Assembly (NCBI RefSeq): GCF_024436435.1
Contig: NZ_JAFMZP010000005.1
Location: 62,001 to 126,000 of the forward strand
Length of the DNA stretch: 64,000 bases
Source of the DNA: Desertivirga xinjiangensis
GTDB lineage: Bacteria > Bacteroidota > Bacteroidia > Sphingobacteriales > Sphingobacteriaceae
Direction: 5' to 3'
The notes beneath the pieces were generated by a model that was given only the letters and a program-made list of their open reading frames with translations, was not told the DNA's origin and ran no database searches. This document shows, piece after piece, positions 46,964 to 64,000 of the stretch. The translations under genes and the position numbers were made by a program. Positions within the stretch are counted from its first letter, which is position 1. Every line of letters begins with the position of its first letter.

Positions 46964-48073
46964 ATGAATGAATTTACATTAGATCTGAATCTAACGGCGA
47001 AAATGCCTCTGCGAAAGGATTGGCGAATCGGTACGATCGGTGCCGGAGCAATTATACGTGGCTGCCATCAGGTGGCTTACCGGAATGCAGGCTTCAACTC
47101 TTATGGAATAGCCTCTCAAAACAGGTCCCGGGCAGTGGAAGTTGCAACAGAGTTTAATATCCCCAACGTCTATGAATCCTGGCAGCAATTAATAAAGGAT
47201 AAAGAAATAGAGATCCTTGACATTGCCGTTCCTCCTGATGTTCAATTAGAAATAGTACGGGAAGCAGTTAAAGAAAACGATCACATTAAGGGAATACTCT
47301 GCCAGAAGCCTTTGGCTATGAATTTGGAAGAAGCCAACGAGATTGTGCTTTTATGCGAGCAGGCTGGAATAAAACTCGCAGTTAACAGCAACATGCGGTA
47401 CGACCAATCCATACGTGCTTTGAAAACCCTGCTTGATCATAATTATTTCGGCGAAATAGTTTTGGCAACTATTGATATGCGGGCAATTCCGCATTGGCAG
47501 GAATTTCTCACAAAATACAACCGTCTCGAGATGTTAAATATGGGCATCCATCATATTGATACATTCCGGTATTTGTTTGGAGATCCTGAAAAAGTAACGG
47601 CGATAACACGGCCTGACCCAAGAACCAAGTTCCCCCACCTTGATGGTATTACCCAATACACTTTTCAATATGCCGACGGACTGATGGCAACGAGTCTGGA
47701 CGATGTTTGGGCCTGGCAGGGTGATGGATGCCAGAAGGATATGTATATCAGATGGCGTGTAGAGGGAGTGGAAGGAATGGCAATGGGTGAGATCGGCTGG
47801 CCTAAATTCCCTGAAAAAGGTTTAAGTACCATAAAATTTACGACCAGAAAATTCCCGGATCAATGGATCGAACCGAGCTGGGACACCGTTTGGTTCCCTG
47901 ATGCTTTTGAAGGAACAATGGCTTCACTACTCTGCGCAGTGGAAAATGATACCCTGCCTGAAATAAACGGTCGTGACAACTTGCATACCATGGCGACCAT
48001 TGATGCGCTTTACTTATCCATCAAAGAAGAGAGAACCGTCAAACTAACCGAAACACTTAAAACCCTTAAATAA
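46964..48073 (+). CDS. Gfo/Idh/MocA family oxidoreductase
   Basis: A 369-residue NAD(P)-dependent dehydrogenase. The Rossmann motif is IGTIGAGAIIRGCHQVAYRN. The usual EKP motif appears as CQKPLAM, with Gln for Glu. The C-terminal alpha/beta domain holds NMGIHHIDTFRYLFGDPE, with the histidine pair typical of the active site. Such enzymes oxidise a hydroxyl of a sugar, inositol or glycoside. It begins a cluster with two TIM-barrel isomerases and a PhyH dioxygenase; the next gene starts eight bases downstream. No signal peptide, so it is cytosolic. Confidence 0.88.
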   Translation: MNEFTLDLNLTAKMPLRKDWRIGTIGAGAIIRGCHQVAYRNAGFNSYGIASQNRSRAVEVATEFNIPNVYESWQQLIKDKEIEILDIAVPPDVQLEIVREAVKENDHIKGILCQKPLAMNLEEANEIVLLCEQAGIKLAVNSNMRYDQSIRALKTLLDHNYFGEIVLATIDMRAIPHWQEFLTKYNRLEMLNMGIHHIDTFRYLFGDPEKVTAITRPDPRTKFPHLDGITQYTFQYADGLMATSLDDVWAWQGDGCQKDMYIRWRVEGVEGMAMGEIGWPKFPEKGLSTIKFTTRKFPDQWIEPSWDTVWFPDAFEGTMASLLCAVENDTLPEINGRDNLHTMATIDALYLSIKEERTVKLTETLKTLK

Positions 48074-48081
48074 TAAGCCGA

Positions 48082-48999
48082 ATGATATCAGTAGGAATTT
48101 TCAATGGATATTATCCATACACTTTAGAAGAAACGATCAGCAAAGTAAAAAAAGATGGATTTAATTGTATTCAGCTTGATCTGAGTTTTAAGGACTTCGA
48201 CCTGAACGACCCGCATACTTTACCAGAAACGCTTACCGTTGAAAAAGCCCGTACTATACGTAATGCTTTTCGTGATGCCAACATTGAAATAGTCGCAATT
48301 TCGGGTTATACAAATCTCATTTCTCCCGATCCGGAAAAGAAACGCAAGAATATAGAGTATGTAAAAACGCTGTTGAAGTTCGCACGCGAGTTTGGCACTC
48401 CTTACGTAATTAGCGAAACCGGAACGTACGAACCAAGCAGTGATTGGGTTTTCCATGAGAGAAATGCCACGGAGGAAGCTTTCCAGGAAATTAAGCAGGT
48501 GCTTGAAGAACTTGCTGAATACGCTTATAAGCATGATGCTGTATTCCTCGTTGAAAATTACGTAAACAATGTTATAGGCAGTGTCGATCAGTTACTACGA
48601 TTGTTCAGAGAGGTTGACCACCCGGGTTTAGGACTGTTGATGGATCCAACCAATTACTTCAACGGCGTCAATATAAAGAATGTGGATGCAGAACTTTACC
48701 GGATCTTCAACGCCCTCCAGGATAAAATAAAGATTGCCCATGCAAAGGATATTAAACAGGCAGAAAGCAGTGAAGAAAAACACGCGGCAATCGACGCTGT
48801 AGAATCGCATACCTTCCGTGGAGCTGGAGATGTAGAACTTCCGGCGGCAGGCTTAGGAGTGCTGAACTATGAGTTGTATCTTAAATTGCTATCTAAGAAG
48901 CACCCCAATATTCCGCTTATCATTGAGCATTTAGACGAGGAGGATATTCCTCGTGCGAAACGATTTGTGGACGACACATTAAAGGCAATCGGCGCCTGA
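48082..48999 (+). CDS. Sugar phosphate isomerase/epimerase, TIM barrel
   Basis: A 305-residue cytosolic protein of the xylose-isomerase-like TIM-barrel (AP endonuclease 2) superfamily. Metal-ligand positions are visible as Glu in VISETGTYEPS, Glu in VFLVENYVNN, Asp in LLMDPTNYFN, His in KIAHAKDI and Glu in LIIEHLDEED. Family members are ketose epimerases, inosose dehydratases or 3-keto-glycoside hydrolases. Next to a Gfo/Idh dehydrogenase it probably processes the keto product of that enzyme. It follows the dehydrogenase by eight bases. Confidence 0.87.
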   Translation: MISVGIFNGYYPYTLEETISKVKKDGFNCIQLDLSFKDFDLNDPHTLPETLTVEKARTIRNAFRDANIEIVAISGYTNLISPDPEKKRKNIEYVKTLLKFAREFGTPYVISETGTYEPSSDWVFHERNATEEAFQEIKQVLEELAEYAYKHDAVFLVENYVNNVIGSVDQLLRLFREVDHPGLGLLMDPTNYFNGVNIKNVDAELYRIFNALQDKIKIAHAKDIKQAESSEEKHAAIDAVESHTFRGAGDVELPAAGLGVLNYELYLKLLSKKHPNIPLIIEHLDEEDIPRAKRFVDDTLKAIGA

Positions 49000-49060
49000 T
49001 CTGTAAAGTCTTATTTCCAAACTCTTATCTCTATAAATATTTACTTAGAAAACTCATACT

Positions 49061-49891
49061 ATGAACAACCTGAAATTAAGCGCTGAACAGAAAGCGGCGT
49101 ACGACAAAGATGGATATCTTATTATCAAGAACTTCTTAACAGAAGAGGAAGTAAGTCACCTTTATGGCATTGCCACTGGCGACGACGTACTAAAAAACAA
49201 AGCATTTGACTTTAATGATCAATCCGGAAAACGGACCAAACTGACGCTTTGGTTTACACCGGGCGATGACGCCTATGGCCTGTTAACACGCAGTGAGGCT
49301 TTGGTTCAGTCCGTACAGGAATTACTGGGCGAAGGAGAGGTCTGTCATTTTCACTCCAAACTGATGCAAAAAGAGCCGCAGGTAGGCGGGGCATGGGAAT
49401 GGCACCAGGATTACGGGTACTGGTATAAGAACGGTTTCTTGTTTCCGGATGCCATGATCAGCGTGATGCTTGCCCTTACCGAAGCTACGGTAAAGAATGG
49501 ATGCCTGCAGGTGTTGAAAGGTTCTCATAAGATCGGACGATTGGAACATAATTTCGCAGGTGAACAACAGGGTGCCGATATGGATTTTGTCAATGAGGCT
49601 CTTGGTCGCTTTGAGCGTGTATATGTCGAGCTTGAACCAGGCGATCTGTTGTTTTTCCATAGCAATACCTTGCATATGTCTGAAGCCAATACTTCTGATA
49701 AGCCCCGCTGGTCTATGATATCGGCTTACAATCTCAGCTATAATAAACCATTCCGGGAAAAGAACTTGTCTTGTATCACGCCGTTACAGACTGTGCCCAA
49801 TGACTCGGTTATATCTCCCAACGCAAAAGGTTTATCTTCAGACAGAGATTTCCTTCAAAAAGAAGATGAGATTACGCTGAAGGTGAAGTAA
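49061..49891 (+). CDS. Phytanoyl-CoA dioxygenase (PhyH) family protein
   Basis: A 276-residue Fe(II)/2-oxoglutarate dioxygenase fold. The iron triad is His115-x-Asp117 (WEWHQDYGYW) and His205 (SNTLHMSEAN). Arg216 (SDKPRW) is the 2-oxoglutarate carboxylate ligand. It should hydroxylate an organic substrate with O2. It lies between two TIM-barrel isomerases, 61 bases after the first and 25 before the second, so it is probably an oxidative step on the same substrate, for example demethylation or ring hydroxylation. The specific reaction is inferred. Confidence 0.9.
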   Translation: MNNLKLSAEQKAAYDKDGYLIIKNFLTEEEVSHLYGIATGDDVLKNKAFDFNDQSGKRTKLTLWFTPGDDAYGLLTRSEALVQSVQELLGEGEVCHFHSKLMQKEPQVGGAWEWHQDYGYWYKNGFLFPDAMISVMLALTEATVKNGCLQVLKGSHKIGRLEHNFAGEQQGADMDFVNEALGRFERVYVELEPGDLLFFHSNTLHMSEANTSDKPRWSMISAYNLSYNKPFREKNLSCITPLQTVPNDSVISPNAKGLSSDRDFLQKEDEITLKVK

Positions 49892-49916
49892 TTGATTTTG
49901 AGATTGACAAAGATAC

Positions 49917-50744
49917 ATGAGATTTAAATTCTTTTGCCCCAGATGGGGAAGCGAGGATATTAGCTGGGATCTGTTTTGCCAAAAAGTACGGGATGAAGGT
50001 TATGATGGAGTGGAGTACGGTATTCCAAATGACGTAGCCATCGGGGAACTCGATGGAGCCTGGAACACCTTCCAAAAATATGATCTGGAAGTTATCCCTC
50101 AACATTATGGAACTTATGATGCAGACTTCTCCAGGCACTTTGATAACTACGCAGCCTGGCTTGAGATGGTGCGTCCTTATCAGGCACTAAAGATTGACTC
50201 CCAAACCGGGAAAGATTATTTTTCTTTTGAGCAGAATAAGAAATTGATAGAGCATGCTGCTCATCATTCCCGCCTATCCGGCGTGGAGGTATTTCATGAA
50301 ACGCACCGTAACAAGTTTACTTTTGCTGCCCACATTACTTTTGACTACCTCAGCCGGATTGCTGATCTGCGCATTACCCTCGATGCATCACACTGGGTAA
50401 ATGTGGCGGAATCTTTTTTAGGTGATCAGCAGGACGCGATGGACCTGGCGATTGCGCGTACGGAGCATATTCATGCCCGCGTTGGCTATCCTGAAGGGCC
50501 TCAGGTTCCTGATCCGGCAGCGCCTGAATGGAATGAGGCCTTGCAGCATCATTTGAACTGGTGGGATAAAGTAATTGAACGTAAGCGCGCGGAGCCCGAT
50601 GCCTTAGTAACCATCACACCAGAGTTCGGACCTTATCCGTATATGGTACACTTACCTTACTCACAAAATCCTATTTCCGATCAGTGGGCAAATAATGTTT
50701 ACATGATGAACTTGCTGAAAGAGCGGTACAGGGAATTTTATTAA
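49917..50744 (+). CDS. Sugar phosphate isomerase/epimerase, TIM barrel
   Basis: A 275-residue xylose-isomerase-like TIM barrel, distinct from the one at 48082. It starts MRFKFFCPRWGSEDISWDLF and has barrel-end motifs VEYGIPND, KIDSQTGKDYFSFEQ, VEVFHETHRNKFTFA, ITLDASHWVNVAE, HIHARVGYPEGPQVPDP and ITPEFGPYPYM, providing Glu, Asp, His and Glu metal ligands. The HARVGYPEGPQV motif occurs in a subgroup I recall beside PhyH and Gfo/Idh genes in Bacteroidota. It is the last enzyme of the cluster. The AraC-type regulator follows after 161 bases. Confidence 0.87.
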   Translation: MRFKFFCPRWGSEDISWDLFCQKVRDEGYDGVEYGIPNDVAIGELDGAWNTFQKYDLEVIPQHYGTYDADFSRHFDNYAAWLEMVRPYQALKIDSQTGKDYFSFEQNKKLIEHAAHHSRLSGVEVFHETHRNKFTFAAHITFDYLSRIADLRITLDASHWVNVAESFLGDQQDAMDLAIARTEHIHARVGYPEGPQVPDPAAPEWNEALQHHLNWWDKVIERKRAEPDALVTITPEFGPYPYMVHLPYSQNPISDQWANNVYMMNLLKERYREFY

Positions 50745-50905: not shown

Positions 50906-51934
50906 ATGAAAGAAGAAGCAGCTGTTAAATGGACAATGTCTTATCCCGAAAAATTCATTTCCATTGCAGACACTCTTCCCTTTGTGAGCCATGATCGGGA
51001 GAACCATAAACTCCGGGCAGATTCAACTGAGCTGTTGACCGGCTTCCAGTATGAAAAAGTGGATGATGGCTGCTACTTGTTCGTCGTGGATATGAAAGCC
51101 TTAAAGGATACCAAGATCATCCTCATGGGCGACAGGGATATCGAATATTACTGCTTATCGTACCAATTAATAAAAGGCTCAGTAAACAAGACACCAAATA
51201 GCAGTGATCCGCTGCAATCTAAAACCATGTCGCTACCGCGGATCTGTAGCTTCTACAACAATGAGTTTGATTACGACACGGCATTTGATAAAGATTCAGA
51301 AGTTAAAGCGTTTATATTCTGCTTTACCAGGGATTGGTTAAGCAGGGGTGTGGACCTTAGTGCGGTAGACAAGGAAGCTTCGTTTATGAAGGTGATCTCC
51401 AAGGAAATAGCTGGTATGGCCTATTTCAGCGATAGCTTTTATAAAGACACTTATGATGAGCTTAATAAATTCTTAAATACCGCAAAAAGATCTCCCGTAT
51501 ATAACCTGATCGTACGTAAGCTTTCATTTACCCTCATTGCAGATTTCTTTACCATCGTTGCCGACCCTGATTCAGTTTTGAATATGCCGGGCGCATCTGA
51601 AGACTTTGACGGTATTGAGGAAGTTAAAAAGTATATCGATCTGCATTTTAGAAAAGGGTTCCCCGGCTTGCAGAAGCTCGCAGAAGTTGGCAATATGACG
51701 GTCGCAACGCTTCGTCGCCAATTCTTGCGCCAAATGGGCCGCTCTGCATTCGACTATTTCCGCGAGGTGCAAATGCGCTTTGCCTTCGACCAGCTACAGG
51801 GCGGCATGCAGGTAAAACAAGTGGCCCTGATGCTTGGATTTGCCAGCCAGGCGAACTTTAGCAGAACATTCAAAACCGTATACCGGGTACCGCCCACAGA
51901 TATTAAAGCTTTAAACAGCGACGTCTTATCATGA
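50906..51934 (+). CDS. AraC family transcriptional regulator
   Basis: A 342-residue regulator. The N-terminal 240 residues are a ligand-binding domain without a clear cupin motif. The C-terminal 100 residues are the double helix-turn-helix: GLQKLAEVGNMTVATLRRQF then KQVALMLGFASQANFSRTFK, ending TVYRVPPTDIK. It resembles the PchR-like AraC proteins of Bacteroidota. It is transcribed in the same direction as the preceding sugar-type catabolic cluster and likely regulates it, or the surface protein gene that starts 78 bases later. Confidence 0.88.
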   Translation: MKEEAAVKWTMSYPEKFISIADTLPFVSHDRENHKLRADSTELLTGFQYEKVDDGCYLFVVDMKALKDTKIILMGDRDIEYYCLSYQLIKGSVNKTPNSSDPLQSKTMSLPRICSFYNNEFDYDTAFDKDSEVKAFIFCFTRDWLSRGVDLSAVDKEASFMKVISKEIAGMAYFSDSFYKDTYDELNKFLNTAKRSPVYNLIVRKLSFTLIADFFTIVADPDSVLNMPGASEDFDGIEEVKKYIDLHFRKGFPGLQKLAEVGNMTVATLRRQFLRQMGRSAFDYFREVQMRFAFDQLQGGMQVKQVALMLGFASQANFSRTFKTVYRVPPTDIKALNSDVLS

Positions 51935-54777: not shown

Positions 54778-56166
54778 TCACATCTTGATGTCCATTATTT
54801 TACCTTGCTTCCTGCTTTCTTCAGCCATAAATCCCATGATATGGCTTTCAATTGAATCGTCTACCGTGGAGGTGAGCAATGCGGGATTTTGCTGACTCAC
54901 AGCATTTACAAAATCTCTGACCAGCAGCCAGTCGCCGCCTCCATGCCCATGGTCTTCATAACCTTTTACATCCTGAGCCTCCGGTACAAATTTTGTTTCC
55001 TTCCTGGTTCTGAAGTCGTGGTGAACGAGTTCGGTCATGTCACCTACCAGGTCTCCCATAGAGCCCATGACCCTTGTGCGACGCCCATGGTATGAGGTAA
55101 ATGCCTCCATAGAGAAATTGGCGGTTACGCTATCTGCGAATTGTATGCTGCTGATATAATGGTCAGGCTGGTCATTGTCCATCCTGTATACACACCGGCC
55201 ATAGTCGCTGGTCTTTAGCTTGTTCAGGATGTATTCTTTTCTGTTAGGGATGTTGTCAGGTACATCCAGAACTGAAAGGAAATGTGTTTGTCGCTCGGCA
55301 TATTCTTTCACCGCAGAGTACGGACACTCTCGTTCTACTGCACAAGTTACGCATCTGTCACTGCTTCCTGCGGGTGCATTTTCTTTGCGAAACCATTTTA
55401 CATCACCCATGGCAACGATCTTTTCACAAGGCTTATTGATCACCCACTTGATGATATCGAGATCATGACATGATTTCGCAAGGATGATAGGTGTTGTTTT
55501 CTTTGAGTTATGCCAGTTTCCGCGAACATAAGAATGTGCCATATGAATATGTTCTACAGGTTCGAAATGCTGTACACTGACAACTTCTCCGATAGCTCCA
55601 TTTGCTATCAGTTCTTTCATCTTAATGAAATAGGGGGCATATCTCAACACGTGACACACTGCTACGATTCTCTTATTCTTTTTAGCTAAAGCCAATATAT
55701 CTCGGCATTCTTTTTCAGTAGGGGCAATCGGTTTTTCCAAGAGGATATCATAGCCCAGCTCCAGGGCTTTCATACAAGGCTCGTAGTGCATGTAATCTGG
55801 TGTAGATATGATGATAGCATCAGCAAACTTAGGTCGTTTGAAAACATCCTCCCAGGTATTAAACCTGTTTTTTTTGGGGATAGAGTGGATCTTGCTGTAT
55901 CGCTCGTTGCGGAATGCGATAGGTTCTGCAACTCCGACTATTTTAAGTTCGTTAGGAGAGTTTTTTGCAAAGTCTCCGTAAACCATGCCCCGGTTTCCGG
56001 CGCCGAGTGTGATAGCTGTAACGGCCTTGTCCAGGGGCTTTAGAAGAGGATTTTTAGGGGTTCTATAGCTGTACGTGTTTTCGCCGACCTTAGCCAGCAG
56101 ATCGCTGCTGATTACGGTTGCGCCCAGGCTTAAGGTTAAGCCCTTTAAAAGATTTCTTCTGTTCAT
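54778..56166 (-). CDS. Tat-type Gfo/Idh/MocA oxidoreductase
   Basis: A 462-residue protein with an RR signal (MNRRNLLKGLTLSLGATVIS), probably exported folded by the Tat system. The Rossmann motif GAGNRGMVYGDFA and the EKP motif (ILLEKPIAPT) are intact. The catalytic segment is KSCHDLDIIKWV. A Cys-rich insert DRCVTCAVERECPYSAVKEY lies near residues 269-285, as in exported members of this family. It would oxidise or reduce a sugar-like substrate outside the cytosol, with cofactor tightly bound. Last gene of the minus-strand operon, eight bases after the aldolase gene. Confidence 0.9.
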   Translation of the reverse strand: MNRRNLLKGLTLSLGATVISSDLLAKVGENTYSYRTPKNPLLKPLDKAVTAITLGAGNRGMVYGDFAKNSPNELKIVGVAEPIAFRNERYSKIHSIPKKNRFNTWEDVFKRPKFADAIIISTPDYMHYEPCMKALELGYDILLEKPIAPTEKECRDILALAKKNKRIVAVCHVLRYAPYFIKMKELIANGAIGEVVSVQHFEPVEHIHMAHSYVRGNWHNSKKTTPIILAKSCHDLDIIKWVINKPCEKIVAMGDVKWFRKENAPAGSSDRCVTCAVERECPYSAVKEYAERQTHFLSVLDVPDNIPNRKEYILNKLKTSDYGRCVYRMDNDQPDHYISSIQFADSVTANFSMEAFTSYHGRRTRVMGSMGDLVGDMTELVHHDFRTRKETKFVPEAQDVKGYEDHGHGGGDWLLVRDFVNAVSQQNPALLTSTVDDSIESHIMGFMAEESRKQGKIMDIKM

Positions 56167-56173
56167 TTGTTGT

Positions 56174-57265
56174 TTATTGCGGGTTGGATATTAAATTTAA
56201 TTTCTCAGATAAGAAAGTGCTTACAAACTCATCGTCAGTCAGGTTTGGGTACTCTTGGTAGATCCTGTCAATTTCCTCTTTTTGCCCTGGTGACAGCGAC
56301 TCTTTCGGGCTAATACACCAGATGCCTTTTAACAGCCCCTGTTTGCGAAGTACTTCATGTATACCGGAGATGCAGCCGTGAAAATTGTGAGAGGGATCAA
56401 ATAATGCAGCGTTACTATCCGTGACAGCAATGGCGTGACTTAAGAGTTGATTGGCAAGTTCGGCGCTGGGCTCCTGCTTATATGTTTTAACCTGGTCTAA
56501 CAATTCAACGGCCTTTCGTGTCCAGACGGCCCAGTGCCCTAGCAGGCCACCTTTAAATTCTATCTCTATTTCGCCTTCCTCTGTTGGAAATCGGTAGATG
56601 GTCATAAGATCATTTACGATGTTGTCATCGTTACCAGTGTACATCGCCACTTCATGTTTCCTGCTCGAATTAGCCAGTGCCCGCATGACATCCAGGGTTT
56701 GATACCTGTTAAAAGAAGCACATTTAATGGCAACTACATTATCGATTTCGACAAACTTTGACCAGAAATCGTAAGAGAAAATCCTTCCGCCAACAGAAGG
56801 TTGCAGGTAAAAACCGAATACGGGCATGATCTCTGCAACACGGCGTGTGCGTTCTAAGATTTGATCTTCAGTCCAGTCCCTTAAACCACCCATGCTTAAT
56901 AATCCAGCATGGTAACCATGTTTTATGGCAATGGAAGCTTCGTTGACGGCCTGAGCGGTAGGCCCGCAGATGCCGCAGATTTTTATAAAGGGTCTGGTTA
57001 AATTGGCCTTTTCGACTTCTTCACTGGCTAATTGAAGTACTTTTTCAAATAGGTTTACCTCCGGATCCCTGATTTCAAACTGGGTGGAGTGTACTGCAAC
57101 TGCGATGCCACCAGCGCCGGCAGCGATATAATATTGCGTTAACAGCCTTTGATGATACTCATCGAGGCTTCTGTCTTCATTTAAGGCCAAAGGATGGGCC
57201 GGAATAACGGTTCCCTGCATTAAATGGTCTTTTAATGTTTGGGATAGTCTGGATAAGCTGCTCAC
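56174..57265 (-). CDS. DHDPS-family aldolase/dehydratase
   Basis: A 363-residue class I aldolase of the dihydrodipicolinate synthase / N-acetylneuraminate lyase family, longer than the usual 300. The Schiff-base Lys181 (VVAIKCASFN) and the Tyr153 (GFYLQPSVGG) are present. I place the start at GTG 57265, which overlaps the epimerase TAG as TAGTG and has GAGAGGAGGA just upstream; the longer frame from 57310 would overlap the neighbour by 46 bases. Members split or dehydrate 2-keto-3-deoxy acids, which fits the surrounding sugar-oxidation genes. Confidence 0.87.
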   Translation of the reverse strand: MSSLSRLSQTLKDHLMQGTVIPAHPLALNEDRSLDEYHQRLLTQYYIAAGAGGIAVAVHSTQFEIRDPEVNLFEKVLQLASEEVEKANLTRPFIKICGICGPTAQAVNEASIAIKHGYHAGLLSMGGLRDWTEDQILERTRRVAEIMPVFGFYLQPSVGGRIFSYDFWSKFVEIDNVVAIKCASFNRYQTLDVMRALANSSRKHEVAMYTGNDDNIVNDLMTIYRFPTEEGEIEIEFKGGLLGHWAVWTRKAVELLDQVKTYKQEPSAELANQLLSHAIAVTDSNAALFDPSHNFHGCISGIHEVLRKQGLLKGIWCISPKESLSPGQKEEIDRIYQEYPNLTDDEFVSTFLSEKLNLISNPQ

Positions 57266-58284
57266 TAGAATTTTCCTCCTCTCTCTTGAAAATGGGTGTC
57301 TTTGCTCCATAGTTCACCACCGTTGGAAATCCAGGTAGCGGTGTGCTCAATTGCTTCACGAATAGTAGTACGCGGGTAACCAAAAAGTCTGTGGCACTCT
57401 GAGGCGTTATTTAATAAGGCTGTTCCTGCGCCGGTATTGATAAATTCTGGTTTTTTTCCGAGAAGCTCTCCAAATTGTTCTGCAAGCCACCTTGTTGATA
57501 GTATTTCTGGTCCTGTTACATTTAATATTTTAGCGGGAGAGCTGCAATGCAACAAAGATCTTAATGCAATCTCGTTAGCATCCCCTTGCCAGATCACATT
57601 GACGTTTTGTGTCGTCAAATCTATTGGTCTGTCTTCTTTCACGGATTTGGCGATTTCAACCAAAACTCCATACCTGAAATCTACCGCATAATTGAGCCGG
57701 TAAATGAGGATAGGCGTTTTATTTTTTTTCGAAAAGTATTCAAAGATCCTTTCCCGCCCCAGGCAGGATTGTGCATATTCGCCAACAGGTTCTGGACTGT
57801 ATTCTTCAGATACACCGCCCTCCTGGACCGGTACGAAAGGAAGTACATTTCCGGAGGAGAAGGCTACAATTCTGGAATTTTTAAAATGTGAGGACACCAA
57901 ACCTGGCAAGAAGGCATTCATTGCCCACGTAAAATCTTCATTTCCGGTAGTGCCGAATTTATGGCCTGCCAGATAAATGATGTTCGGGACTTGTGGCAAG
58001 TTTTTAAGTGCTTCTTCATCTAAAAGATCGCAGGCAATCGTTTCGATACCTTCGTTTTCCAATTCTAATCTAAGGCTCCCGGAAGAAAACCTTGATACGC
58101 CAATTACTCTCTTTTTAATGCCTGCCAGGCGTATTGCTTTAACGGCTAATTTAGCCATACTGGGGCCCATTTTGCCGCCAATGCCGAGGAACATGATGTC
58201 GCCTTCAATACTCTTTATGTCTTTAATCAGACTAGCAGAAGGCTCTAAAATGCTTTCTTCAAACTCTTTTAAATTTAATTCCAT
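57265..58284 (-). CDS. NAD-dependent epimerase/dehydratase-like protein
   Basis: A 339-residue extended-SDR fold protein. The nucleotide motif is IMFLGIGGKMGPSMAKLAVK (GxGGxxG), unusual for the family. The SDR catalytic YxxxK reads YAQSC in EYAQSCLGRERIFEYF, so the Lys is replaced by Cys. The substrate-binding part includes VNVIWQGDANEIALRSLLHC. It may be a reductase with a shifted catalytic residue or a non-classical isomerase. It follows the Nramp-like gene by seven bases and overlaps the aldolase start by one base, so it belongs to the operon. Confidence 0.82.
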   Translation of the reverse strand: MELNLKEFEESILEPSASLIKDIKSIEGDIMFLGIGGKMGPSMAKLAVKAIRLAGIKKRVIGVSRFSSGSLRLELENEGIETIACDLLDEEALKNLPQVPNIIYLAGHKFGTTGNEDFTWAMNAFLPGLVSSHFKNSRIVAFSSGNVLPFVPVQEGGVSEEYSPEPVGEYAQSCLGRERIFEYFSKKNKTPILIYRLNYAVDFRYGVLVEIAKSVKEDRPIDLTTQNVNVIWQGDANEIALRSLLHCSSPAKILNVTGPEILSTRWLAEQFGELLGKKPEFINTGAGTALLNNASECHRLFGYPRTTIREAIEHTATWISNGGELWSKDTHFQERGGKF

Positions 58285-58291
58285 TTTTACT

Positions 58292-59521
58292 TTAATTTAT
58301 TAATGTGAGGAGGTTGCTGATAGCTAAAGCTATTAAAACTGATAGGCCTAAAAATCCAAAAACTTTGGTAATGGGCTTATTTACATGTTCTTTCATAATT
58401 TCTTTATCATTTGCAATCATAAACATGGTGATTCCTATAAAAGGAACGAGAAAAATGGTAACGCTTTGAGCAAAAACAATTAGCTCCAGGGGTAGCTTTC
58501 CAAAGACGATCGCGATGATAGTGCCGAAGATCATCACCAATGAAATGAATAACTTGACCATCTTGTGATTAAGGTTATTACCATATTGAAAAGTGTCGCC
58601 CAATAGAGAACCGCCCAATACTGCATTGCCAATTAAGGAAGAGAAAGAAGCACTAAACAGGCCAATGAAAAATAGATTGGTAGCACTTGAGCCTAACAGA
58701 GGTTCTAATGCTTTGCCCATTTCGGAAGCAGAGTTAACCTTGATATGCTCAGGATGAAGTGTGTTGGCAGCACATATCAGCACTGCGGCACTCATGATAC
58801 CTAATAGGATTATTCCCACCTGGCTACCCATAATGGTCTCTTTGGTTGTGTGTCCTTGCGATAGCTTCTTGCGGGTTTGTACCAGGTAACTTTGATAAAA
58901 GGCCCCAACAATGGAAAAGCAGGAAGCTGTGAAAGCAACGATCAAACCTAATGATCCATCAGGGAAACGAGGAAGAAACCCTTCACCCAATTTTTGAAAG
59001 GAAGGAGGTACCAGGATAACTGTTGTTAGAAATGCGAACAACATGATGATGATGAGTGCCAGCATCAACTTTTCGAAAACTATATAGAAAGAACGAAAGA
59101 ATAGCAGGGAGATGCCAATAAGATTAAAAAGTACAATCCATATTTTCGGATCAGTGTTCGTGGGTTCAGAAATAGATACGGCTATCCCTGTTGCATTGCC
59201 TGCCTGAAAGGAGGTGGCTACTAAAAAAATGCCGATCCCGATGATGACTGATACACTCTTACCATATTTTTTCCGGATTAAGGTGAGCAATGTATCGTCG
59301 GTGGCCATGCCAATCCTTGCGGACATGTTTGCATATACAGACATGAAAAATATAGCAATAACTATTATCCAGATTAGGCTGAATCCAAAATCTGCACCCA
59401 TCTTGGAGGTAATGGTCATTTTACTGGGGCCGAAAATTAATGCAGCTGTAATTATCCCTGGTCCAAGGATGGCGAGTATGTTGTGAAGAAAGCCTTTGTT
59501 ACTTTTACCTGGTGTTTCCAT
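58292..59521 (-). CDS. Nramp-fold transporter without metal motifs
   Basis: A 409-residue inner-membrane protein with about 11 helices and the Nramp layout. The helix-1 metal motif DPGN is replaced by GPSK (residues 31-34 in ALIFGPSKMTITSKMG), and the helix-6 MPH motif is replaced by QSY (IVGAFYQSYLVQ, about 204-215). Divalent-metal transport by the known mechanism is therefore unlikely. Its place between a sugar dehydrogenase and an epimerase gene suggests import of an organic acid or sugar. The start overlaps the dehydrogenase stop at 59521. Family assignment firm, substrate unknown. Confidence 0.85.
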   Translation of the reverse strand: METPGKSNKGFLHNILAILGPGIITAALIFGPSKMTITSKMGADFGFSLIWIIVIAIFFMSVYANMSARIGMATDDTLLTLIRKKYGKSVSVIIGIGIFLVATSFQAGNATGIAVSISEPTNTDPKIWIVLFNLIGISLLFFRSFYIVFEKLMLALIIIMLFAFLTTVILVPPSFQKLGEGFLPRFPDGSLGLIVAFTASCFSIVGAFYQSYLVQTRKKLSQGHTTKETIMGSQVGIILLGIMSAAVLICAANTLHPEHIKVNSASEMGKALEPLLGSSATNLFFIGLFSASFSSLIGNAVLGGSLLGDTFQYGNNLNHKMVKLFISLVMIFGTIIAIVFGKLPLELIVFAQSVTIFLVPFIGITMFMIANDKEIMKEHVNKPITKVFGFLGLSVLIALAISNLLTLIN

Positions 59522-61062
59522 TAATTTTTTCGGGTTTGCTTAAATTCGTTAATACTAATCGTTGTGCTTTGGTTATTGAAATTTGTTCTTATATAGTTGA
59601 ATATAGCTGTTGCTTCTTCGTCTTTTAGAAAATTGAATGCAGGCATAGGAGTATCATACTTAACTCCCTTTATAGCTTTGTCTTTTAATCCGTTGAGAAT
59701 AATATCTGCTAACACTTTTTTTTCTCCCTTAACGGTTGTTGAATTTTCTAAAGACGGAAATGTGCCGGGTATACCTTTCCCGTCTGGCTTGTGACAAGAA
59801 GAACAATATGATTCATACAACGCTTTTCCGGAAATCGGGTAATTACTGATATTTTGTTCTGCTTCCTTCTGTTCTGCTTTTACCGGTCGGATAATGCTGC
59901 CAGTTACTTCATCTGTTTTTCTTAATCTGTATATTTTGTCATCATCCGGTTTCGGGAATCCTTTCTGAGGGTTCCAGTCCCGGTTACTGGTGCAAAAATA
60001 GATGTCACCGTTAGGAGCTGTAATCACAGACCGTAGCCTTCCTAATTGATCTTTAAATAATATAGATTCATCTGTCACTTTACGGCCGTCTTCAGATAGT
60101 TTCAATATACGTAAAGACTGGCTTTTTAATGTAGTTAGCAGGAGGCTATTCCTCCACTCAGGTATCCGGCTGCCGCCATAGTACGCAAGTCCTGCGGGTG
60201 CTATGACTGGTGTCCATGACCTTATGGGGGGGCTGAAAGTTCTTTGGTTAGATAAGGCTAAGTTGCTTTTCGGAGGATTCCTGCCTTCTATTAATGGCCA
60301 TCCGTAATTGTGTAATGGGCTGATGAGATTTATTTCGTCTTCAACTGCATCGCCGTGTTCGGAAGTGTATATATTATTATTTCCAGCTTGAGTTAAGCCT
60401 TGTATATTGCGAAATCCCCAGGCATACACATAACTACCTGCAATGGGGTTATCAGCCGGGATACTGCCATCAATGTTAATTCTCAATATTTTTCCATTTA
60501 ATGCTGTAGAGTCCTGCGCATAGTTGTCAGATGCCGCATCACCGGTAGCCCAGTATACTTTATTGTCGGTTCCTATAATTATCCTCGATCCGTTGTGCCC
60601 GGTGTTTCCCGGGATTCGTAAAAGAAGCTTTGGTTCTTTTAATTCAGTGTTCTTTGTGTATACATACCTATAAAGGTTCGAATAAATGTTTCCGTTATGC
60701 TTTGTCGTGAAAGATATAAAAAGATACTGTGTTTGTTGGTGAGGTTGAAAAAGTGTCATTCCTAGTAAGCCGGTGGTTCGTTGATGGAAAATATCCGGTA
60801 TTTGCTTTAGTAAGCTAATTTTTTTCGTTTTTAGGTCTAATTTTTTTATGTTTCCTGTAATTTCAGAGAAAATAATGCAATTATTTGTTTTGTCATACTG
60901 CAAATCCCACGGAATGTTTAATTTATGAGCCACCTGGCTTAGGGAAATTTTGGAATTACCCAGATCGATGGTGTATAATATGGTGTCATTGCCCTTATTG
61001 CAAGACGAAAGCAAAGTAATTATACTATATATATATAGGAGTAGGACAATCTGATGCTTCAT
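59521..61062 (-). CDS. PQQ-type sugar dehydrogenase fused to cytochrome c
   Basis: A 513-residue lipoprotein (LLSSCNKG, Cys21) facing the periplasm. Residues about 40-370 form a six-bladed propeller of the soluble glucose/sorbosone dehydrogenase family (VAHKLNIPWDLQYD, GTDNKVYWATGDAASDN, NGKILRINIDGSIPADNP, YAWGFRNIQGL, TSEHGDAVEDEIN, WPLIEGRNP). The C-terminal 100 residues are a class I cytochrome c with CSSCH (about 419-423) and Met ligand in MPAF (about 473). It should oxidise an aldose or polyol and pass electrons to the respiratory chain. The coding region is noticeably AT-rich compared with genes before 55 kb. First gene of the minus-strand operon. Confidence 0.9.
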   Translation of the reverse strand: MKHQIVLLLYIYSIITLLSSCNKGNDTILYTIDLGNSKISLSQVAHKLNIPWDLQYDKTNNCIIFSEITGNIKKLDLKTKKISLLKQIPDIFHQRTTGLLGMTLFQPHQQTQYLFISFTTKHNGNIYSNLYRYVYTKNTELKEPKLLLRIPGNTGHNGSRIIIGTDNKVYWATGDAASDNYAQDSTALNGKILRINIDGSIPADNPIAGSYVYAWGFRNIQGLTQAGNNNIYTSEHGDAVEDEINLISPLHNYGWPLIEGRNPPKSNLALSNQRTFSPPIRSWTPVIAPAGLAYYGGSRIPEWRNSLLLTTLKSQSLRILKLSEDGRKVTDESILFKDQLGRLRSVITAPNGDIYFCTSNRDWNPQKGFPKPDDDKIYRLRKTDEVTGSIIRPVKAEQKEAEQNISNYPISGKALYESYCSSCHKPDGKGIPGTFPSLENSTTVKGEKKVLADIILNGLKDKAIKGVKYDTPMPAFNFLKDEEATAIFNYIRTNFNNQSTTISINEFKQTRKN

Positions 61063-61129
61063 GCAATGCGTTTCCTTTAATTTCTTTGTCTAAAATAACT
61101 AAAATAAATATATATACAAAAAAAGTTAA

Positions 61130-61145
61130 AAATTGTATACATAAA
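61130..61145. promoter_or_regulatory. Operator-like site 1
   Basis: AAATTGTATACATAAA with palindromic core TGTATACA (61134-61141). Its exact reverse complement recurs at 61236-61251. It lies nine bases upstream of the -33 box of the dehydrogenase operon. The GTATAC core is like sites of GntR-type regulators of hexuronate catabolism. Confidence 0.55.
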
Positions 61146-61235
61146 TTGAGCCTTCCTGAATAATTTTTTGTCGAAATATTTTGTTTTTTAAAAAATACTT
61201 CCTAATTTCATCTAAAAGTATTCAATACCTGTGTG

Positions 61236-61251
61236 TTTATGTATACAATTT
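61236..61251. promoter_or_regulatory. Operator-like site 2
   Basis: TTTATGTATACAATTT, the exact reverse complement of site 1, with core TGTATACA (61240-61247). It lies about 60 bases before the SusC start. The mirrored placement suggests one regulator controlling both directions. Confidence 0.55.
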
Positions 61252-61310
61252 GGTCTTGGAAATGCAATCCATCCACTACAATTTTTCATTTTTTAACTTA
61301 AAAGAGCACT

Positions 61311-64000
61311 ATGAGATCTATTTTTCTAAAAGGAAGCAGCATGCTGAGGTGTAGGCATCTTCTACTGCTTTGCTTAATTTACCCGGGCTCCGGCTACTCT
61401 GAGGTAACTACCCTTAAAAAATTTGCGGGAGAACTTAGTCGTATACCTTCGCAGGGATCTGGCTTTTCGGGTGCGGTCAGTTCTTCACAGGAAACCATTA
61501 CCGGGTATGTTAGGGATGACCAGGGCGGACCTCTTCCAGGTGTTGTGGTTAGAAATTTGAAAACTAATCAGACCACTGCTACTGATGCTGAAGGAAAGTT
61601 TCAATTAAAATCAGCTGCAGATGATGACCGTATCCAATTCCGGATGATCGGTTTTGCTACGAAGGTGATCCTGGCAAAAGATGTATCCAATGTTGTGCTG
61701 GCAACGCAAACCAGTGGGCTTAATGAAGTGGTGGTAGTGGGATATGGAACACAGAAAAAAGCGGATGTATTAGGTTCTATCTCTACGGCGAAGTTTGATG
61801 AGAATATTACCAGCAGGGGGCTGTCTAATGCCTCTTCAGCTTTGCAGGGTCTTTTACCGGGGCTGGCTGTTAATCAGAACTCCGGTATGGCGGGAAATAA
61901 TGCTGCGGAATTGATGATACGTGGTTTAGGGACAGTAAATGGTTCCAGCCCACTGATCGTTGTAGATAACATGCCTGATGTGAGCCTGAACCGTATCAAT
62001 GTGAATGATATTGAAAGCGTTTCGGTGTTAAAAGATGCGGCCTCTGCCGCAATTTACGGTACCCGGGCGGCTAATGGAGTTATTTTGATCACTACTAAAA
62101 CGGGTAAGCGGAATACGAAACCAAGTATTAGTTTTCAAAGTAACCTGTCAGTTATACGGCCTACTGCAAATGTGGAATTTGTTAATAATTATGCAAAGGC
62201 ATTAACAGCAACACAGGTTGGGCAATCTGCTACCACATTGCCATCTGCTTTTGCTTTTAAAAACGGTACAATTGATCAATGGCTATCTCAAAGTCTCATT
62301 GATCCTAAAAAGTATCCCAGTACCGATTGGTGGGATGTGATCTTAAGAGATGGGGTTTCCAAAAATTACAATATCTCCGTAAGTGGCGGAAGTCAGAATA
62401 ATAATTATTACTTGTCTTTTGGTGCCCTGGATGAAACAGGAATTCAAATTGAGAACGACTTTAAACGGTATAACGCCACTTTTAATTTCGATACAAAGAT
62501 CATCGAATCCATCAGCTCGGGAGTGAAATTTTCGGGTAACTGGTCCGACTTAAAGTATAACTACAGCGAAGGTATGACGGCTAACAGTACGAGTGGATTA
62601 GACCTTTTCTCGGCACCTGCCGGTATTTTGCCTTTCGACCCTGTTACAGGATACTACGGCGGTGCAATGGCTTACAACGAAAGCTCACAAGCCACCAATG
62701 TTTATGCTGATTATATGGTTAGAAACAGGAATAATATGAACCAGAAGCAGGCATATCTGAACGGCTATTTAGACTGGAAACCGGTAAAGGGCCTGGTAGC
62801 ACACATCGATTATACATTAAACTATAATAACAGATTTGACTGGAGGGCTGATATGCCAACCCGGGCTTATAACTTTCAAACAGAGGATTGGGGTCCAAGG
62901 ATTTATGTAGGGACAAATGAGCCTATTTATAACGTAGACAGGGAAGGGATTAAAACACAGTTCACTACCCGGCTGAATTATGATGTGACTGTTGCAAAGG
63001 ATCATAGTATTGCAGCTATGGCAGCTTACAGCGAGGAGTATTGGAAAGACAGATCGCTTTCGGCGAGCCGAGCAAGCAGGCTAACTCCGAATATGACTGA
63101 AATTGATGGGGCATTGAATGAGGTTCAGACTACCGGAGGTAACTCTGAAACTGAAGGTCTTCGATCTTATATCGGTCGCTTAAACTACTCCTATAAAGGA
63201 AAATATCTTATTGGGGGAACATTCAGAGCTGATGCCTCATCCAGGTTCTTATACGGAGACAGGTATGGGTATTTTCCATCGGGGGCTGTTGGCTGGCGAC
63301 TTTCTGAAGAATCATTTATTAAACCTTTATTGGAGAAAATAGCGGTGAACTCTGCTAAACTCAGGGTTAGCTATGGAGCATTAGGTAACAATGCCGGGGT
63401 GGGGCCATATGAACAGCAGGAATGGTTAACGCCTAGTCACTATTTTCTGGGGGCAGCTCCGGTGATAGGTTTGACCAATAAAAAGTTTATTAATTATAAT
63501 CTTTCCTGGGAAAAAACTAATGTTTTCAATACGGGTATGGACTTGTCCATGTTCAGTGATAAATTATTACTTGAACTGGATTATTATGAAAGGTTAACCA
63601 AAGGTATGAACAGACCTTCGGATCTGTCAATTCACTTATTGGGTGCTTATACGCCTCCGCGAAGGAATATTGGTGATATGAGGAACAGGGGGATAGAAAC
63701 CAATCTAACCTGGAATGATCGTGTAGGAGAAGTACGATATATGGTTAATATGAATTACTCTACTAACAGAAATAGGTTATTGTCCTGGAATGAGCCCCTT
63801 GCGAATGGTTCTGTCTTTGTAGATATGCCTTATAATTTTGTTTATGCCTTCAAATCGATAGGTATTGCACAAACATGGGAGGATGTCTATAAAGCTGCTC
63901 CTCAAGGCGCTGCCCCTGGAGATATTTTGCTGGAGGATGTAAATGGCGATGGAAAAATCGATATTAATGACCGGGTCGCTTATTCTAAGTATCAACTAGG
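61311..64000 (+). CDS. SusC/RagA-type TonB-dependent receptor, partial
   Basis: The gene is open from ATG 61311 to the window edge (896 codons shown; SusC proteins are usually about 1000). A signal peptide (HLLLLCLIYPGSGYS) is followed by a carboxypeptidase-regulatory-like domain (ITGYVRDDQGGPLPGVVVRN), then the plug with LNEVVVVGYGTQKKADVLGS, VIRGLGTVNG-type segment (LMIRGLGTVNGSSPLIVVDN) and SVSVLKDAASAAIYGTRAAN GVILITT, then barrel strands. It imports glycans or other large ligands. A SusD lipoprotein gene is expected beyond the window. Divergent from the dehydrogenase operon with shared operators. Confidence 0.93.
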   Translation, partial: MRSIFLKGSSMLRCRHLLLLCLIYPGSGYSEVTTLKKFAGELSRIPSQGSGFSGAVSSSQETITGYVRDDQGGPLPGVVVRNLKTNQTTATDAEGKFQLKSAADDDRIQFRMIGFATKVILAKDVSNVVLATQTSGLNEVVVVGYGTQKKADVLGSISTAKFDENITSRGLSNASSALQGLLPGLAVNQNSGMAGNNAAELMIRGLGTVNGSSPLIVVDNMPDVSLNRINVNDIESVSVLKDAASAAIYGTRAANGVILITTKTGKRNTKPSISFQSNLSVIRPTANVEFVNNYAKALTATQVGQSATTLPSAFAFKNGTIDQWLSQSLIDPKKYPSTDWWDVILRDGVSKNYNISVSGGSQNNNYYLSFGALDETGIQIENDFKRYNATFNFDTKIIESISSGVKFSGNWSDLKYNYSEGMTANSTSGLDLFSAPAGILPFDPVTGYYGGAMAYNESSQATNVYADYMVRNRNNMNQKQAYLNGYLDWKPVKGLVAHIDYTLNYNNRFDWRADMPTRAYNFQTEDWGPRIYVGTNEPIYNVDREGIKTQFTTRLNYDVTVAKDHSIAAMAAYSEEYWKDRSLSASRASRLTPNMTEIDGALNEVQTTGGNSETEGLRSYIGRLNYSYKGKYLIGGTFRADASSRFLYGDRYGYFPSGAVGWRLSEESFIKPLLEKIAVNSAKLRVSYGALGNNAGVGPYEQQEWLTPSHYFLGAAPVIGLTNKKFINYNLSWEKTNVFNTGMDLSMFSDKLLLELDYYERLTKGMNRPSDLSIHLLGAYTPPRRNIGDMRNRGIETNLTWNDRVGEVRYMVNMNYSTNRNRLLSWNEPLANGSVFVDMPYNFVYAFKSIGIAQTWEDVYKAAPQGAAPGDILLEDVNGDGKIDINDRVAYSKYQL

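Follow-up and report, generated by a model that had tools for sequence, protein, structure and literature searches.

What does an operon of five tightly packed genes do when it stands back-to-back with a SusC receptor and carries two enzymes that reach no Pfam or NCBIfam cut-off? The operon lies in a stretch of 64,000 nucleotides from Desertivirga xinjiangensis (contig NZ_JAFMZP010000005.1, positions 62,001 to 126,000), which we call the window. Read along the minus strand, it encodes a pyrroloquinoline quinone (PQQ)-type glucose/sorbosone dehydrogenase (GSDH) with a cytochrome c domain, an Nramp-fold membrane protein, two proteins named here EPI and ALD, and a Gfo/Idh/MocA oxidoreductase; SusC is divergent on the plus strand. 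We find that four of the five genes travel together in relatives and that the genes accompanying them point to an N-acetylated amino sugar. The module very probably achieves oxidation of a sugar outside the cytoplasm, entry of the acid by a transporter without its metal-binding site, and cleavage within the cell. Oxidative catabolism of an N-acetylated amino sugar is our preferred reading of the module, at slightly less than an even chance. The features, with the evidence for each, are as follows.

54778..56166, minus strand: Gfo/Idh/MocA oxidoreductase with a twin-arginine translocation (Tat)-type N-terminus, NRRNLLKG (PF01408)
56174..57310, minus strand: ALD, class I aldolase-like protein of an undescribed family; likely start GTG 57265 (Lys/Tyr pair, structural model, junction)
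57265..58284, minus strand: EPI, extended-SDR-fold protein of an undescribed family (structural model, fold matches, column counts)
58292..59521, minus strand: Nramp-fold membrane protein without metal motifs, candidate importer of oxidised sugar (PF01566, motif columns)
59521..61062, minus strand: PQQ-type GSDH with C-terminal cytochrome c and lipoprotein signal LLSSC (PF07995, PF00034)
61131..61144, plus strand: predicted GntR-type operator AATTGTATACATAA in the divergent promoter region (motif search)
61237..61250, minus strand: second, inverted copy of the predicted operator, 106 bases from the first (motif search)
61311..64000, plus strand: SusC/RagA TonB-dependent receptor, ending at 64493 beyond the window and followed by SusD (TIGR04056)

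A conserved operon with two undescribed families

An earlier note, made from the window alone, had read the five co-oriented genes as one operon back-to-back with SusC (TIGR04056, E=1.8e-193), and the open reading frames bear this out. GSDH and the Nramp gene share one base (TAATG), and gaps of 7 bases separate the Nramp gene from EPI and ALD from the Gfo gene. The listed frame of ALD overlaps the EPI gene by 46 bases. Because residues 1-16 of this longer frame were modelled with a predicted local distance difference test score (pLDDT) of ~50, and because GTG 57265 overlaps the EPI stop codon by a single base, we take this GTG as the likely start, in which case EPI and ALD also have one base in common (TAGTG).

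A scan with ALD over one genome per species returned 231 relatives; from these, we retained 80 loci. EPI adjoins ALD in 77 of them, and the locus includes the Nramp gene in 71 cases and GSDH in 64. The order GSDH-Nramp-EPI-ALD is kept, with strand, in ~60 of the 80 loci, and the median intergenic distances in relatives are 2, 10, and -1 bases; with both order and spacing held in this way, the conservation of the operon exceeds chance. Scattering of the genes among relatives, the outcome that the earlier note had set against a single system, was thus not seen for four of the five. The fifth, the Tat-type oxidoreductase (PF01408, E=5e-17), does belong to the operon in the window and occurs in only seven loci, namely this one and six close Pedobacter-like ones, so its place in the proposed system shrinks to that of a local addition. 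In two Paenibacillaceae genomes, homologues with 38-42% identity are neighbours of the module or of genes that accompany it. A role as a GH109-type glycosidase was rejected for this protein, as no GH109 structure appeared among its PDB sequence matches at 1e-5, and we treat it as an ordinary Gfo/Idh oxidoreductase.

Of 396 Bacteroidota genomes, six have full-length copies of both EPI and ALD, and the two were never found apart; one of the six pairs is divergent (~33% identity) and in reversed order. Beyond this phylum, EPI is present in about 120 of 300 Paenibacillaceae genomes, and the EPI tree places the Bacteroidota branch beside members from Thermoanaerobacter and from lyase-type Paenibacillaceae operons (neighbours read from the tree only). 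At locus L125 (G018:C3), in a distant Bacteroidota genome, the reversed pair with 33% identity adjoins a Tat-type TIM-barrel protein.

Neither protein reaches a Pfam or NCBIfam cut-off. ALD has no Pfam match up to E=10, PF00701 (DHDPS) included. Its AlphaFold model (pLDDT 90.2) is closest to N-acetylneuraminate lyase (NAL) and DHDPS, and the 50 best PDB matches all belong to the NAL/DHDPS superfamily, with TM-scores to the target of ~0.80-0.86. Lys196 is present in 112 of 112 sequences, aligning with the lysine of DHDPS 5ktl, and Tyr168 in 111 of 112. The TIM barrel, the Schiff-base lysine, and the tyrosine are shared with that superfamily, whereas ALD is only ~17% identical to solved members and differs in its obligate SDR-fold partner and its invariant HSTQF and TGNDDN motifs. 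Residue pair and modelled fold together support assigning ALD to the class I aldolases, and the earlier proposal of a class I aldolase or dehydratase stands at the level of family membership.

EPI shows only a sub-threshold match to the Pfam Epimerase family. Its model (pLDDT 90.6) resembles TerB and UDP-sugar epimerases, with which it shares the Rossmann fold, the glycine motif, and a serine and tyrosine that are invariant over 111 sequences (Ser143 and Tyr170). The lysine of the YxxxK motif, by contrast, is never present: it is replaced by Cys in 96 sequences (Cys174 in the window), Thr in 11, Val in 3, and Ile in 1. The SDR-like step suggested earlier therefore has to be treated with caution. 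The invariant Lys109 might act in place of the missing lysine.

Regulation, dehydrogenase, and Nramp-fold protein

The 248-base divergent region holds the two inverted copies of AATTGTATACATAA. A degenerate form, AWTTGTATACAWWW, has exactly two matches in the 5.5 Mb genome, both of them here. Sites with a GTATAC core occur in all 22 loci that have the same divergent arrangement, and in pairs in 19 of them, against ~0.1 such sites per region expected by shuffling, although the 22 loci are related and do not count as independent events. Across the locus set, 42 of 47 intergenic TTGTATACAA-like sites lie upstream of GSDH, and such sites are found at 0.42 per kb of intergenic sequence vs 0.013 per kb of coding sequence. 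We predict that the two TTGTATACA sites are GntR-type operators: a GntR-FCD regulator (L009:16572-17231) is encoded within the cluster, and we take the motif to resemble the sites of FadR-type GntR regulators. The predicted operators link the oxidative operon with the transcript that carries SusC. No site matching the Bacteroidota -33/-7 promoter consensus was found in this region, and the total number of consensus matches was not above chance. Two further GTATAC palindromes, variants of the site, lie at L009:18083-18120 in the divergent region between the genes for an SMP-30 lactonase and an aminotransferase, and probably belong to this GntR regulon too.

The dehydrogenase is well preserved (PF07995, E=1.4e-70; PF00034 cytochrome c, E=8.9e-13). 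Over 64 relatives, His156, Arg218-Asn219, Lys313, Arg342, and Arg344 are 100% conserved; these match the residues that form the PQQ site and the catalytic base in soluble glucose dehydrogenase. The haem motif CxxCH is present in 63 of the 64. The nearest solved structure is the aldose dehydrogenase 3a9g. Compared with the soluble aldose sugar dehydrogenases of its family, the window protein shares the propeller and all PQQ-site residues and differs in being a lipoprotein with a fused cytochrome c. Periplasmic oxidation with electrons passing to cytochrome c had been proposed in the earlier note, and the PQQ-type enzyme, its intact catalytic residues, and the c-type haem all agree with it; the part that probably does not hold is the aldose or polyol as substrate.

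The Nramp-fold protein scores 240 bits against PF01566 (cut-off 29.8; E=3.6e-71) and has lost the metal-binding signatures of its family. In TM1, DPGN is replaced by GPSK in 67 of 71 relatives and by GPGS in 4, so that a lysine stands in place of the metal-binding asparagine in 67. In TM6, MPH has become GA(F)YQ in all 71 (GAFYQ in the window protein). Both motifs are thus absent in 71 of 71 relatives, as had been noticed for the window protein alone. Proteins without DPGN and MPH are described as Nramp-related, and one of them, EleNRMT, carries Mg2+ (PMC12873925; PMC4072509). The window clade has in common with NRMT and EleNRMT an Nramp fold that lacks the two motifs, and differs from the Mg2+ carrier NRMT in its invariant GPSK/GPGS and GAxYQ signatures and in occurring, among the loci seen, only in sugar-acid operons. 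The precedent, together with an SSS symporter in the plus-strand gene set, would allow the protein still to move a cation (Mg2+ or Ca2+), with the acid entering by the symporter or another carrier of the locus. We regard this as unlikely, given that the gene is fixed between GSDH and EPI in ~60 of 80 loci, that lysine has taken the position of the TM1 asparagine, and that a conventional Nramp protein with DPGN and MPH is encoded elsewhere in the genome.

The candidate substrate and the rival routes

The genes beyond position 64000 were examined for signs of a substrate, as the earlier note had proposed. Behind SusC, the plus strand carries SusD (PF07980), two small lipoproteins, a heparinase II-like lyase (E=4e-89), and the GntR-FCD regulator; then an SMP-30 lactonase, a class III aminotransferase, a galactonate-dehydratase-like enolase, an SDR, and the SSS symporter; and finally an M20 N-acyl-amino-acid deacylase, a small Gfo protein (Gfo10), and the L-serine ammonia-lyase SdaA, the only copy in the genome (TIGR00720, 596 bits against a cut-off of 345). 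The SusC/SusD pair together with a carbohydrate-active enzyme, the lyase, qualifies the region as a Bacteroidota polysaccharide utilisation locus, and the lyase, deacylase, and serine dehydratase suggest an N-acetylated amino sugar.

The same partners recur elsewhere. We scanned 40 EPI-ALD loci, mostly from Paenibacillaceae, with additional loci from Clostridia and one divergent locus from Bacteroidota. The alpha and beta parts of L-serine dehydratase lie near the pair in 21 and 20 of the 40 loci, the M20 deacylase in 14, Gfo10 in 13, and a heparinase II/III-type lyase in 8. Genomes carry only one or two copies of serine dehydratase, and in several the operon copy is the sole one, so its nearness in 21 loci is not explained by chance. 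In Paenibacillaceae, operons hold the pair with L-serine dehydratase, M20 deacylase, or a heparinase III-like lyase (E=1e-24), and other loci carry GH20, GH88, NagB-like, and NagA-like genes and BNR_4 proteins; those of Algoriphagus and Belliella gave no relative with a solved structure.

Several observations from these loci stand apart from the counts. A second operon type, EPI-ALD-SdaAB-SdaAA-heparinase III-like lyase, occurs in six Paenibacillaceae loci (L152, L143, L144, L154, L155, and L160) and is followed by a sugar ABC importer in several; its serine dehydratase is divergent, ~50% identical to the canonical enzyme, and both copies are present in three genomes. The divergent copies keep 57 of 64 invariant columns, which does not discriminate between a changed and an unchanged substrate. 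Directly upstream of EPI-ALD, about half of the Paenibacillaceae loci encode a 440-490 aa protein with an IIGP...FPSF start and a weak GdpP-type GGDEF match (L126:5998-7353 and 17 similar genes), which may serve as a dedicated sensor or regulator. In a metagenome-assembled Bacillota genome (L085:13862-14977), the neighbourhood of the pair includes an acetate kinase-like gene together with one that, inspected by eye, looks like DUF1343 (NamZ-type exo-N-acetylmuramidase), a possible further link to amino sugars.

The earlier note had favoured a neutral aldose or polyol as substrate. With heparinase II/III-like lyases, GH20, GH88, NagA/NagB-type enzymes, M20, and L-serine dehydratase travelling with the module, we do not retain this choice. 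M20 and L-serine dehydratase in two phyla, heparin-lyase-type enzymes, and hexosaminidases point instead to an N-acetylated amino sugar, part of whose carbon would end up as serine. On our preferred reading, the locus would be the oxidative arm of a system that uses an N-acetylhexosamine-containing, uronate-rich glycan, probably one like a glycosaminoglycan. SusC/SusD would import oligosaccharides, which the heparinase II-like lyase would cut. The lipoprotein dehydrogenase, a component confined to Bacteroidota, would oxidise C1 of the amino sugar in the periplasm and pass electrons to its own cytochrome c, and the Nramp-fold protein, which has lost its metal site, would let in the N-acetyl-aldonate. 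Once in the cytoplasm, this C6 acid, still unphosphorylated, would be cleaved to C3 pieces by EPI and ALD acting as an obligate pair. One piece would be at the level of N-acetylserine, from which the M20 deacylase and L-serine dehydratase would yield acetate, ammonia, and pyruvate. Of the possible cleavage schemes we choose this serine route, e.g. by 5-dehydrogenation and then retro-aldol cleavage between C3 and C4, although taken by itself it has a rather low probability. The complete proposal is of a phosphorylation-free pathway common to Bacteroidota and Firmicutes, in which the new EPI/ALD pair cuts an N-acetyl-hexosaminate to C3 units, one leaving as N-acetylserine, and the Nramp-fold protein imports the organic acid; we give it a low, if appreciable, probability.

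Some points weigh against this reading. NAL-family aldolases normally yield pyruvate from 2-keto-3-deoxy acids, and the 5-keto scheme would supply no such acid. The missing SDR lysine makes a plain dehydrogenase role for EPI doubtful. No partner gene lies near the pair in 11 of the 40 loci, the lyase-type Paenibacillaceae operons are without M20, and a few Paenibacillaceae loci adjoin fuconate-type or galacturonate-type genes. A search of this genome for pqqC gave no match, as it also did in control genomes. Because part of the Paenibacillaceae loci have other neighbours, more than one sugar may feed into EPI-ALD from upstream.

Three other routes deserve comparison. ALD would take the type of substrate normal for its family if the N-acetyl-aldonate kept its six carbons until late in the route: EPI epimerised C2 to the L-amino-acid configuration, M20 deacetylated the product, and an enzyme of the serine-dehydratase type deaminated it to 2-keto-3-deoxygluconate, which ALD would cleave to pyruvate and glyceraldehyde. 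This follows the logic of the OngB/OngC/KdgK pathway for GlcNAc1A (PMC9537276), and the lyase-type operons with a divergent second serine dehydratase, beside the canonical one in three genomes, would suit it. The SdaA of this genome, like that of most Paenibacillaceae operons, is, however, a canonical L-serine ammonia-lyase for which a C6 substrate is hard to see, and even the divergent enzyme retains most of the invariant columns; overall we find the route improbable. The pyruvate-type aldolase would equally be accommodated if lyases freed 4,5-unsaturated N-acetyl-amino-uronates and ALD, after oxidation or reduction at C1, cleaved a 4-deoxy-5-keto acid to pyruvate and an aldehyde at the N-acetylserine level, a scheme that also fits the lyases beside EPI-ALD, M20, and L-serine dehydratase. 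In heparinase II/III substrates, though, the uronate and the amino group are on different sugars, and the GH20 and NagA/NagB neighbours indicate a neutral N-acetylhexosamine, so that we consider this scheme very unlikely.

There remains the route first put forward in the earlier note, in which a neutral aldose, a polyol, or a uronate is oxidised and cleaved, and serine dehydratase and M20 are incidental neighbours. It could call on the gluconolactonase (SMP-30), the D-galactonate-dehydratase-like enolase, and the SDR downstream here, and on the IlvD/EDD-type dehydratase or UxaA/UxaB-like genes that adjoin some Paenibacillaceae loci. An association of serine dehydratase with the pair beyond chance and the recurrence of M20 and Gfo10 in both phyla speak against mere coincidence of neighbours, and we judge this route distinctly unlikely.

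Elsewhere in the window, the plus strand at 46964-50744 encodes a Gfo/Idh oxidoreductase, a xylose-isomerase-like TIM barrel, a PhyH-type dioxygenase, and another protein with a TIM barrel; the gene for an AraC regulator comes next (50906-51934). This separate set has the look of a cluster for the catabolism of a cyclitol or keto-sugar.

Relation to described systems and significance

Heparin and heparan utilisation loci of Pedobacter and Bacteroides likewise combine SusC/SusD with a heparinase II- or III-like lyase. Canonical processing of glycosaminoglycan monosaccharides uses kinases and KduI/KduD, whereas the present locus has an oxidative operon joined to it. Among described systems, the nearest is the oxidative chitin pathway (ong) of Pseudoalteromonas, which has in common TonB-dependent uptake, a periplasmic GH20 (in relatives), an unphosphorylated N-acetyl-aldonate, and deacetylation followed by deamination (PMC9537276). 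It uses other enzyme families at every common step after uptake. C1 oxidation by a lytic polysaccharide monooxygenase, import by an SSS transporter, the D-aminoacylase-type amidohydrolase OngB, the pyridoxal phosphate-dependent OngC, and phosphorylation of 2-keto-3-deoxygluconate (PMC9537276) would find their counterparts in a PQQ dehydrogenase, an Nramp-related protein, an M20 deacylase, an Fe-S serine dehydratase, and a class I aldolase acting on the unphosphorylated acid. Among the cluster genes scanned, there was neither an amidohydrolase-fold deacetylase, as OngB is, nor any sugar kinase such as KdgK, and the class III aminotransferase is of a PLP family other than that of OngC. A search of open-access full text found no described pathway with this combination, in agreement with the earlier note, and no description there of N-acetylserine in amino-sugar catabolism or of an Nramp protein with polysaccharide utilisation.

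EPI and ALD, always together, are found in ~40% of the sampled Paenibacillaceae and in scattered Bacteroidota, so that a common part of carbon and nitrogen metabolism lacks an assignment; the neighbouring genes now give it a concrete, testable candidate substrate class. If the Nramp-fold protein does carry organic acids, it would be a member of the Nramp superfamily with a non-metal substrate. Such carriage would directly test the idea that an Nramp outgroup links the metal carriers to the LeuT-fold carriers of organic solutes.

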